Assembly (NCBI GenBank): GCA_904393575.1
Contig: CAJFMZ010000009.1
Location: 1-32,553 of the forward strand
Direction of reading: 5' to 3'
From: an uncultured Sellimonas sp.
GTDB lineage: Bacteria; Bacillota; Clostridia; Lachnospirales; Lachnospiraceae
Length of the DNA: 32,553 bases
Shown here: in pieces, positions 1,358 to 7,156 of the stretch
How the letters are laid out: each line of letters opens with the position of its first letter
How positions within the stretch are numbered: the first letter of the stretch is position 1
Notes under the pieces: model-generated
The model's database searches: none
What the model saw: only the letters and a program-made list of their open reading frames with translations
What the model was told of the DNA's origin: nothing
Made by a program: the position numbers and the translations under genes

Positions 1358-1723
1358 TTATGCTCTTTCCACGTTCCTGGTGGCCACAATATCCACTCCG
1401 GTTCCGGCCGCATCCTTCAAAATCACGTCGCCAATCTGAACCGGGGCCTCTGCCTCGATTCCTTTCAGAGCCCGGATGCAGTCAAAGATTTTGTCTTTTG
1501 GAATATCTTCTTTTGTCTTTACCGATACCATATCCGCAGTCCCTCCTTTTACCTTGACGGTAGAAGTTACAATGCGGGTCGGACTGGTCACCTCTTTCCT
1601 GGCATAGACTTCCCCTCTTTTACAAGTATTTCCGGTGACATTGATAATCTGTCCGTCTTCCATTTCTACGGTAATAGGGCATCCCATTGGACAGCTGATA
1701 CAGGTTAATTGCCGAATGTCCAT
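1358..1723 (-). CDS. DUF1667 domain-containing protein (Cys-rich, putative Fe-S partner of the FAD oxidoreductases)
   Basis: 121 aa; N-terminal CISCPMGCPITV...GNTCKRGE motif and VTSPTRIVTSTVKVKGG; placed directly after the FAD oxidoreductase. Confidence 0.85.
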   Translation of the reverse strand: MDIRQLTCISCPMGCPITVEMEDGQIINVTGNTCKRGEVYARKEVTSPTRIVTSTVKVKGGTADMVSVKTKEDIPKDKIFDCIRALKGIEAEAPVQIGDVILKDAAGTGVDIVATRNVERA

Positions 1724-1725
1724 TT

Positions 1726-2991
1726 CTACGCCTCCTCTATCTTCACTGTGATGGTCTTCAGATCAGGATACTCGAAAAGCTGCGCTTTTGTCAGTCTGAT
1801 CTCTTCCATTTCTCCCGGAGCCACAATCTGACGTCTGCGCCGGATGACTCTTTCCTCATCAAAATATACACTTACATAACAGTTTTTCATTACCGCTCCT
1901 ACGCGGAACCGTACAGTCAGCTGATCCTCCATCCTGCTCGGATCAATGAAGGATGGTACCGTATACCGGACTCCGCCTGACGGGTTCATCAGAATTTTGC
2001 GACCCCTTCCGCCGCTTCGTTCTCCTTTGACGTAAGACACCGCATTCTTTCCTGCCGCAGCCGCTTCTTCGGATACAAAATCAACCAGGTCGTGCACATG
2101 GAGCACATTGCCGCAGGCAAAGACCCCCTCGATATTCGTCTCCAGACTTTCATTGACAATCGGTCCGGATGTCACTTTGCTCATTTCCACGCCCATTCCC
2201 CTGGAAAGTTCGTTTTCAGGGATCAGCCCTACCGAAAGCAGCAGGGTGTCGCAGGAATACTCCTCCTCCGTTCCCGGAACAGGAGTCCCGTTCTGATCCA
2301 CTTCGGCCAGTGTGACTCCCTCCAGCCGCTCTTTTCCCTTTATATCCACAACTGTATGGCTTAGTTTCAGCGGAATTCCATAATCATCGAGGCACTGGAC
2401 AATATTTCTCTTGAGTCCTCCGGAATATGGCATCAGCTCTGCCACCACTTTTACCTTTGCCCCTTCCAGTGTCATCCTTCTGGCCATGATAAGTCCGATG
2501 TCTCCGGAACCAAGGATTACGATTTCTCTCCCAGGCATCAGTCCTTCCATATTGACCAGCCTCTGTGCTGTTCCGGCGGAAAAGATTCCTGCCGGCCGGT
2601 ATCCCGGTATATTCAGCGCGCCTCTGGACCGCTCTCTGCACCCCATGGAAAGGATCACTGCCTTTGCCTGAATTTCAAACAGTCCTTCCTCTCTGTTCAT
2701 GGCCGTCACAACTTTCTCATGACTGATATCCATCACCATCGTGTTCAGACGGTATTCAATCCCAAGATCAAGGACCTGGTCAATAAATCTCTGTGCGTAT
2801 TCCGGACCCGTCAGCTCCTCCTGAAAGGTGTGAAGGCCGAACCCGTTATGAATACACTGATTCAGGATTCCTCCAAGCTCCCTGTCTCTTTCCAGAATCA
2901 GTATCCGGTCGATCCCGTTTTGTTTGGCCGAAACCGCGGCCGCAAGACCTGCCGGTCCTCCCCCGATGATGACAATGTCATAATTTTTCAT
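1726..2991 (-). CDS. NAD(P)/FAD-dependent oxidoreductase
   Basis: 421 aa; N-terminal IIGGGPAGLAAAVSAKQNG dinucleotide fold, internal VILGSGDIGLIMARRMTLEGAKV, FACGNVLHVHDLVDFVSEEAAAAG. Confidence 0.88.
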   Translation of the reverse strand: MKNYDIVIIGGGPAGLAAAVSAKQNGIDRILILERDRELGGILNQCIHNGFGLHTFQEELTGPEYAQRFIDQVLDLGIEYRLNTMVMDISHEKVVTAMNREEGLFEIQAKAVILSMGCRERSRGALNIPGYRPAGIFSAGTAQRLVNMEGLMPGREIVILGSGDIGLIMARRMTLEGAKVKVVAELMPYSGGLKRNIVQCLDDYGIPLKLSHTVVDIKGKERLEGVTLAEVDQNGTPVPGTEEEYSCDTLLLSVGLIPENELSRGMGVEMSKVTSGPIVNESLETNIEGVFACGNVLHVHDLVDFVSEEAAAAGKNAVSYVKGERSGGRGRKILMNPSGGVRYTVPSFIDPSRMEDQLTVRFRVGAVMKNCYVSVYFDEERVIRRRRQIVAPGEMEEIRLTKAQLFEYPDLKTITVKIEEA

Positions 2992-3008: not shown

Positions 3009-4445
3009 CTACAATCTGTCTTTATTCGTGCCAACAACAATCCGGGAATCTCCGCCCGATTTTGTAATGTCGGACATACTGGTTCCCAGCTCCCGCGCAA
3101 GAATCTCCATGATTCTCGGAGAACAGAATCCGGACTGGCAGCGTCCCATTCCTGCTCTTGTCCGTCTCTTGACACCGTCCAGAGATTTTGCACCAAGAGG
3201 ACGGTGAATTGCATCCAGGATTTCCCCTTCCGTAATCATCTCGCACCGGCAGATTATATTTCCATAGGCAGGTTCCCTTTTAATCAGTTCTGCATGTTCT
3301 TCCTTTGACAGTGAATTCGGATCGAGGATGCCCTTTCTTGTCGAAATGAACTCTTCCTTTTCCTGAAGCCCCATATTTTCTTTCAGTATCTGCGCCACCA
3401 TTTCTCCGACAGCCGGACAACTTGTCAGTCCCGGAGATTCGATTCCCGCGCAGTCGATAAAACCTTCCGCATCTTCCACCTCTCCAATGATGAATTCACT
3501 GCCGTCCTCATGGGCGCGAAGCCCTGCAAATGACGTGATCACCTGGCGCATCGGAAGATCTTTGACACTTTGTCCCGCCTTTTTGATAACTTCATCCAGG
3601 CCTTCTCTGGTTGTATTGGTTCCATCTTTATTTTCGATATCATTGGCAGTAGGCCCCAGAAGAAGATTCCCGTGCACCGTAGGCGTCACAAGGACTCCTT
3701 TGCCGTATTTCGTAGGGAGTGAAAAGATCGTTCTGCTTACATGCTGTCCTGCACTCTTGTCCAGAAGGCAGTATTCACCCTTTCGCGGCGTAATGTGAAT
3801 CTTCTTTTGACTGACCATATTGTGGAACCGGTCCGCATAGACGCCTGCCGCATTGACTATATACCTGGTCCGGAAGGTTCTCTTATTTGTATGCAGCGCA
3901 TAGCCTCCATCGATTTTGACGATGTCCTCTACTTCTGTCCGGAAATGGAATTCTATTCCGTTTTCATACGCATTTTCTGCCAGGGCAATATTCAGCCCGA
4001 ACGGACAGACGATCCCGGCAGTTGGGGCGTATAGTGCCGCATAGACCTGATCGTTGAGATTCGGTTCCATTGCTTTGGCTTCTTCGCCGCTCAGGATCCG
4101 CAGACCTTTCACGCCGTTTTTCTGTCCCTTTTCATAGAGCTCCCGCAGTTTCGGCACATCTTCCTCATTCAGACAGATGACAAGGGAACCGATTCTCTGA
4201 AATGGAAAATCCAGGTCTTTGGAAAGCTGTTCCATCATCTCGTTCCCCTTGACATTCAATCTGGCCATCAAAGATCCCGGAGCGGCATCGTAACCGGCAT
4301 GCACAATGGCGCTGTTTGCCTTGGATGTTCCACAGCAGATATCTTCTTCCTTTTCCAGGACGCATGCTCTGACCTGATACCGGGACAGTTCCCGTGCGGC
4401 TGCCGCTCCGGATACTCCCCCTCCAATTATGATCACATCATACAT
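3009..4445 (-). CDS. FAD-dependent glycerol-3-phosphate dehydrogenase-like oxidoreductase (GlpA/GlpO type) with C-terminal BFD-like [2Fe-2S] domain
   Basis: 478 aa; IIGGGVSGAAAARELSRY, HAGYDAAPGSLMARLNVKGN, C-terminal CRCEMITEGEILDAIHR...TRAGMGRCQSGFC. Confidence 0.85.
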   Translation of the reverse strand: MYDVIIIGGGVSGAAAARELSRYQVRACVLEKEEDICCGTSKANSAIVHAGYDAAPGSLMARLNVKGNEMMEQLSKDLDFPFQRIGSLVICLNEEDVPKLRELYEKGQKNGVKGLRILSGEEAKAMEPNLNDQVYAALYAPTAGIVCPFGLNIALAENAYENGIEFHFRTEVEDIVKIDGGYALHTNKRTFRTRYIVNAAGVYADRFHNMVSQKKIHITPRKGEYCLLDKSAGQHVSRTIFSLPTKYGKGVLVTPTVHGNLLLGPTANDIENKDGTNTTREGLDEVIKKAGQSVKDLPMRQVITSFAGLRAHEDGSEFIIGEVEDAEGFIDCAGIESPGLTSCPAVGEMVAQILKENMGLQEKEEFISTRKGILDPNSLSKEEHAELIKREPAYGNIICRCEMITEGEILDAIHRPLGAKSLDGVKRRTRAGMGRCQSGFCSPRIMEILARELGTSMSDITKSGGDSRIVVGTNKDRL

Positions 4446-4478: not shown

Positions 4479-6008
<1,530 letters not shown>

Positions 6009-6241
6009 CTACATCGTCCATACATTCTGGTTTGTGGAAGAAACACACATCGCCCCTGCCGACAGTGCCGCCATGACGGACTTTTTGTCCGTGATCAGTC
6101 CGCCCGCTATCACCGGTGTTCTCACATCATGAAAACCACTTTGACCTCTTCCAACCCGCAGCACTTCTCCAGACCCTCTTCATCTTTTACCGCTGCAATG
6201 ACCGGATTCGCCTCCAGCATGTCATAGAATCTCTGATCCAT
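6009..6241 (-). pseudogene. glpP: glpP remnant (glycerol-3-phosphate-responsive antiterminator), central region deleted and frameshifted
   Basis: N-terminal piece MDQRFYDMLEANPVIAAVKDEEGLEKCCGLEEVKVVF (frame ending at stop 6122, RBS GGAAGG before 6241) is followed in another frame by RTPVIAGGLITDKKSVMAALSAGAMCVSSTNQNVWTM* (stop at 6009-6011). Both match the two ends of GlpP-family proteins; the middle is missing. Confidence 0.85.
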
Positions 6242-6307: not shown

Positions 6308-6357
6308 GAAAAAAAGAAGAGCAAAACAAAACAACATCTCTGTTGTCCTGTTGCTCT
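6308..6357 (-). terminator. Leader terminator upstream of glpP remnant (candidate GlpP antitermination target)
   Basis: Minus strand AGAGCAACAGGACAACA-GAGA-TGTTGTTTTGTTTTGCTCT followed by TCTTTTTTTC, between a predicted promoter (6390-6418) and the glpP start (6241). Confidence 0.75.
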
Positions 6358-6389
6358 CCCGTCTCAGCTTTTGTTCTTCAATTAAGAAA

Positions 6390-6418
6390 ATTTTACCATA
6401 GCAGCCTCTTTTTTACAA
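6390..6418 (-). promoter_or_regulatory. Predicted sigma-A promoter of the glp operon
   Basis: Minus strand TTGTAA-17 bp-TAAAAT upstream of the leader terminator. Confidence 0.55.
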
Positions 6419-6445: not shown

Positions 6446-7156
6446 TCAGATGTTTTCCGCTATTGTCTCCTCAATTCTGCGTTTTACTTCAGCAGCGATC
6501 TCCGTAGTCTTCATGTCCTTATATTCCTCATAGTACATCGGCTTCAAAAAATGTACCTGTACCTTGACCGGTTTAATGCTGTTGGTATCAAAAGGTTTGA
6601 ATGCATCGATCAGTGCCACCGGAATGATCGGGCATCTGGCCTTGGTGGCAGATTTGAAACTGCCTCCCTTAAAGGTCCCCGGATGGTTGCCGTTCTTGGA
6701 ACGTGTCCCTTCCGCAAAGATCAGATAGTTTCTTCCGTTTTTGACTTCCTTTGTCACGTCAATGATGACCTGCATGGCCTGGCGTACATCATCCCGGTCA
6801 ATCATATAGGCTTTCATGCAGGCAAACACCTGCTTCAGAAACGGAATATTGGCAATCTCTTTTTTGGCCACCACGGAAAAAGGAACCGGACATGCCTCAA
6901 TGATCGCCAGCACGTCATACAACCCCTGGTGGTTGGGGAAGAACATAAATCCGCTCTCTTTTGGAATATTTTCAAGTCCATGTGCCTCAATATGGACACT
7001 TCCCCCTTTGTTCGCCTTATGATCGATATATTTCAGTAATTTATAGCGCTCTTCTTCTGTATATTTATCTACATGAGATGCGTAGTAGCAAAGCTTGATC
7101 CATCCATGCGGGACATAGATCAGATTCCTGAGAACCATCATCAAAATACGTTTCAT
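6446..7156 (-). CDS. 1-acyl-sn-glycerol-3-phosphate acyltransferase (PlsC family)
   Basis: 236 aa; NHQGLYDVLAI (NHxxxxD) and FAEGTRSKNG (EGTR) motifs. Confidence 0.92.
   Translation of the reverse strand: MKRILMMVLRNLIYVPHGWIKLCYYASHVDKYTEEERYKLLKYIDHKANKGGSVHIEAHGLENIPKESGFMFFPNHQGLYDVLAIIEACPVPFSVVAKKEIANIPFLKQVFACMKAYMIDRDDVRQAMQVIIDVTKEVKNGRNYLIFAEGTRSKNGNHPGTFKGGSFKSATKARCPIIPVALIDAFKPFDTNSIKPVKVQVHFLKPMYYEEYKDMKTTEIAAEVKRRIEETIAENI

Follow-up and report, generated by a model that had tools for sequence, protein, structure and literature searches.

Internal deletion of the glpP antiterminator gene behind an intact GlpP-type leader in the glp operon of an uncultured Sellimonas

The DNA analysed in this study, referred to as the window, is a stretch of 32,553 nucleotides from an uncultured Sellimonas sp. 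(contig CAJFMZ010000009.1), and a glp operon is located on its minus strand. The glycerol kinase gene glpK (4479..5975, minus) encodes FGGY_N and FGGY_C domains, and its product is 96% identical to that of the sister species. It is followed on the same strand by a glpA-type glycerol-3-phosphate dehydrogenase gene with a BFD [2Fe-2S] domain (3009..4445; DAO and Fer2_BFD), by an FAD/NAD-linked oxidoreductase gene in the glpB-like place (1726..2991; Pyr_redox_2), in an order that is the same in relatives, and by the last gene of the operon, which encodes a DUF1667 protein (1358..1723). All of these genes were intact, and glpK had a pN/pS of 0.03 against the sister, in agreement with the sequence-only reading, which had described the remainder of the operon as undamaged. 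An acyltransferase gene lies at 6446-7156, and a promoter and a leader are found between this gene and a remnant of glpP.

We found that window positions 6241-6009 (minus) represent a glpP (G3P_antiterm) gene carrying a 337-bp internal deletion and a frameshift, as had been claimed. The N-terminal ORF (6241-6122, minus) has 39 codons, corresponds to approximately residues 1-38 of GlpP, and ends in ...KVVFMM followed by a stop codon. The C-terminal piece (6128-6009, minus) is in another frame, reads DVRTPVIAGG...NVWTM before its stop codon, and corresponds to residues 150-188. It matched positions 138-173 of the PF04309 profile with 44.8 bits, exceeding the Pfam curated cut-off. In the sister, Drancourtella massiliensis An770 (G002, NZ_JACJKH010000024.1), an unbroken glpP of 188 codons is present at the syntenic place, and full-length glpP was also found in seven further related records. 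Both halves of the remnant were collinear with the intact sister gene at 80-84% DNA identity and had the same neighbours on either side, which excludes a chance resemblance.

The size of the deletion was inferred by comparison with the An770 gene. The missing 337 bp correspond to 112 codons plus 1 nt, close to the earlier estimate of about 110 codons, and the reading frame was shifted because of the one additional base. At the junction (6128..6129, minus), codon 37 is fused to codon 150 of the 188-codon gene in a clean deletion. The 8 nt ATGATGTG between the two frames had been described as a linker. This description did not hold, as codon 37 supplies the first two bases and the remaining GATGTG represents codons 150-151 (D-V in the window, D-L in the sister). 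An insertion of these 8 nt was also rejected, because the flanking sequence on both sides aligns to codons of the intact gene. Direct-repeat slippage was rejected as the origin of the deletion, since no repeat exceeded 6 nt and the break points themselves had none. At 6122-6128, a GTG in the C-terminal frame shares bases with the stop codon that ends the N-terminal remnant (GTGA); re-initiation at this site is conceivable, and the overlap is probably due to chance.

A functional GlpP has the 173-position PF04309 domain in a single open frame. At the window locus, about positions 137-173 were covered in one frame, the N-terminal piece was in another, and the middle of the domain was absent. With the frame lost and the middle missing, no functional GlpP can be made from this locus, as the sequence-only reading had concluded. 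The homologous ends in their original order, the syntenic site, and the inactivating lesion identify it as a glpP pseudogene. No PF04309 match above background other than the remnant was found in the organism's own assembly, which is 91% complete and comprises 2.66 Mb in 289 contigs.

The age of the loss was estimated from the retained codons. Between the window and the sister, the 77 retained glpP codons showed 31.5 synonymous and 13.5 non-synonymous changes, giving a pN/pS of 0.12, and the identical codons in pairs of intact glpP genes gave 0.13-0.26. Because the remnant ends carry the same mark of purifying selection as intact copies, the loss of glpP is recent, which upholds the earlier proposal. 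By its substitution pattern, the remnant thus evolved as a working gene for the greater part of the period after the two lineages separated. A recent loss would also account for the undecayed glp genes.

An intact promoter and a conditional terminator, which together extend over 6418-6309 (minus), had been overlooked in the sequence-only reading. The promoter of the glp operon (6390..6418, minus), detected by consensus scan, is TTGTAA-17-TAAAAT with an extended -10 (TG), and it is kept in the sister and in related species. A GlpP-type leader composed of a box, a hairpin, and a T7 tract spans 6375-6309 (minus). The UGAGAC-GGGAGAG box (6354..6366, minus) is the best-conserved part of an alignment of 16 leaders (A1) and, by analogy with B. 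subtilis (PMC9604022), is the probable GlpP-binding site. The conditional terminator (6309..6360, minus), recognized by folding, covariation, and the covariance model R1, consists of a 20-bp hairpin with a 4-nt loop and the T7 tract. The hairpin had a stability of -29 kcal/mol (z -4.1), and none of 200 shuffles was equally stable. In the alignment with the sister, the leader had one mismatch over 92 nt, whereas the neighbouring DNA was approximately 80% identical. The covariation in the 16 aligned leaders was above that of shuffles (0/500) and above that of slid controls. These results indicate that a promoter followed by a conserved box and an intrinsic terminator precedes the glp genes of the window. 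A new promoter bypassing the terminator was considered and rejected, as the consensus scan found no promoter-like site between the terminator and glpK.

We investigated the distribution of this leader with R1, which was built from leaders adjoining GlpP. The window leader scored 71.1 bits, and matches elsewhere reached 74.6 bits. The leader was present in 23 of the 397 family genomes sampled, with a single copy in the window's genome, and further examples at Lachnospiraceae glp operons include L052, L060, and L113. In a 299-genome sample, GlpP was present in 16 of 19 genomes with the leader compared with 64 of 280 leaderless genomes (p 1e-7). When the members used to train the model were left out, GlpP was present in 8 of 10 leader genomes (p 3e-4), and this figure is the fairer one because the training leaders came from beside GlpP. 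Where GlpP lies elsewhere, the leaders precede glpK or a glpA-type gene. Both the R1 scores and this association show that the window leader belongs with the GlpP-linked leaders of its relatives. Low-scoring R1 matches (31 bits), seen in G260 and G305 with no glp genes nearby, were taken as chance. A search of the leader against 4227 Rfam families gave no match besides a chance miRNA at E 0.95. With its UGAGAC-n-GAGAG box and a length of approximately 60 nt, the leader forms a clear RNA element and is a candidate for a new RNA family, absent from Rfam as searched.

No intact GlpP was found in 4 of the 23 leader genomes, namely those of the window, G268 (79% complete), G130 (92%), and G370 (99%). 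In G268 (L134, C19:17211-17537), glpP is internally deleted and decayed, with a left break near codon 32, a right break near codon 150, and an additional frameshift and stops. As in the window, the leader (45.5 bits) and the glp genes, intact as far as read, are retained, and glpP is cut to its N- and C-terminal ends with a near-identical missing middle. Unlike that of the window, the remnant is more decayed, its C-terminal piece is 50% identical, and it belongs to another genus. Common ancestry of the two deletions was judged unlikely from gene state and GlpK identity, because the congener G002 (GlpK 96%) has an intact gene and G268 is more distant (GlpK 87%). The deletion in G268 is probably independent and older, and the near-equal missing interval may be a coincidence, two cases showing no more than that. 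In G370:C12 (L154) and G130:C166 (L135), the leader lies directly before glpK with no glpP between them, and no PF04309 GlpP was found in either genome. In the congener G001, GlpP is likewise absent; glpK there follows a transporter gene, with no strong leader match. The cases of G268, G130, G370, and G001 indicate that loss of glpP is recurrent and that the leader can outlast the gene. Two partial GlpP-like stretches were observed in G313 besides a fuller copy (G313:C1:421368-421751 and 492448-492606) and are possibly decayed paralogues.

It has been reported that the 5' UTRs of glpD, glpT, and glpFK in B. subtilis contain a core promoter, a GlpP site, and an inherent terminator, and that such a leader is not induced in glpP-deficient cells (PMC9604022). 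If the window leader works in the same way, its hairpin would end transcription unless GlpP with glycerol-3-phosphate prevents termination. With GlpP gone, most transcripts would be expected to stop at approximately 6309, and the glp operon would be uninducible and expressed at the read-through level alone. We consider it probable that the locus is a GlpP-controlled operon that recently lost its own regulator by the 337-bp frameshifting deletion, with uninducible, read-through-level expression to be expected. The sequence-only reading had proposed that induction was rewired to a constitutive state, a silent state, or control in trans. Because the terminator is kept and GlpP is gone, uninducible or low expression is the most likely of these, and constitutive expression is argued against by the lack of a promoter-like site between the terminator and glpK. 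The loss of glpP itself is real and fairly ordinary in kind, and slightly unusual for the retained terminator.

The 91% completeness of the genome weighs against this explanation, as a second GlpP could be missing from the assembly. Such a copy in the unassembled part would work the leader in trans and make the local gene a redundant casualty. Several relatives have two or three copies or an unlinked GlpP (for example G054, G155, G162, G181, G279, G053, and G149), but G002, the only other congener with GlpP, has one full copy by PF04309, and by completeness alone a random gene is missed with a chance of approximately 9%. Control by another copy, also suggested earlier, is therefore unlikely in our view, and none was found in the assembly as it stands. 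An artefact of assembly or strain mixing, with a full glpP in the organism, would likewise leave remnant ends that look fully constrained, and the draft assembly of 289 contigs is compatible with one. However, a collapse would depend on an extended direct repeat, and no repeat in the sister gene exceeds 6 nt near either break region; the missing middle is on no other contig, and the site lies well inside its contig with both flanks collinear with the sister. We regard an artefact as very unlikely. The retained leaders also bear on the loss of induction. In G370 and G130, well-preserved glp operons stand behind the leader with no GlpP detected, so silencing need not follow, and in G268 the leader and the glp genes persist beside a badly decayed glpP. 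These cases would fit a leader that is now GlpP-independent, either because another factor prevents termination or because it is a fixed attenuator with enough read-through. Yet there is no candidate factor, the statistical link between leader and GlpP is strong, and G130 and G268 are incomplete genomes whose losses may simply be recent. GlpP independence in the window is thus quite improbable, and a general version, in which Lachnospiraceae repeatedly keep the leader after glpP loss for a second antitermination factor or for GlpP-free use of the hairpin, seems equally doubtful.

On the favoured explanation of recent regulator loss, the window carries a natural knockout of glpP that leaves the target RNA intact; in three relatives the leader is likewise present and no intact GlpP was found. 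These genomes offer a direct way to test whether GlpP is needed by GlpP-type leaders, and they bear on the ways in which glycerol control is given up by gut Lachnospiraceae. Compared with the glpP-glpK operon of D. massiliensis An770, the window is alike in gene order, in its near-identical leader, and in a GlpK of 96% identity; it differs in that An770 has a complete glpP of 188 codons. Compared with B. subtilis, the window differs in that the leader is followed first by glpP, which shares an operon with glpK and is deleted, with no other copy in the assembly. It resembles the GlpP system of the B. subtilis glpD, glpFK, and glpT leaders in having a promoter, a GlpP site, and an intrinsic terminator before glycerol genes, and in the PF04309 family of the regulator.
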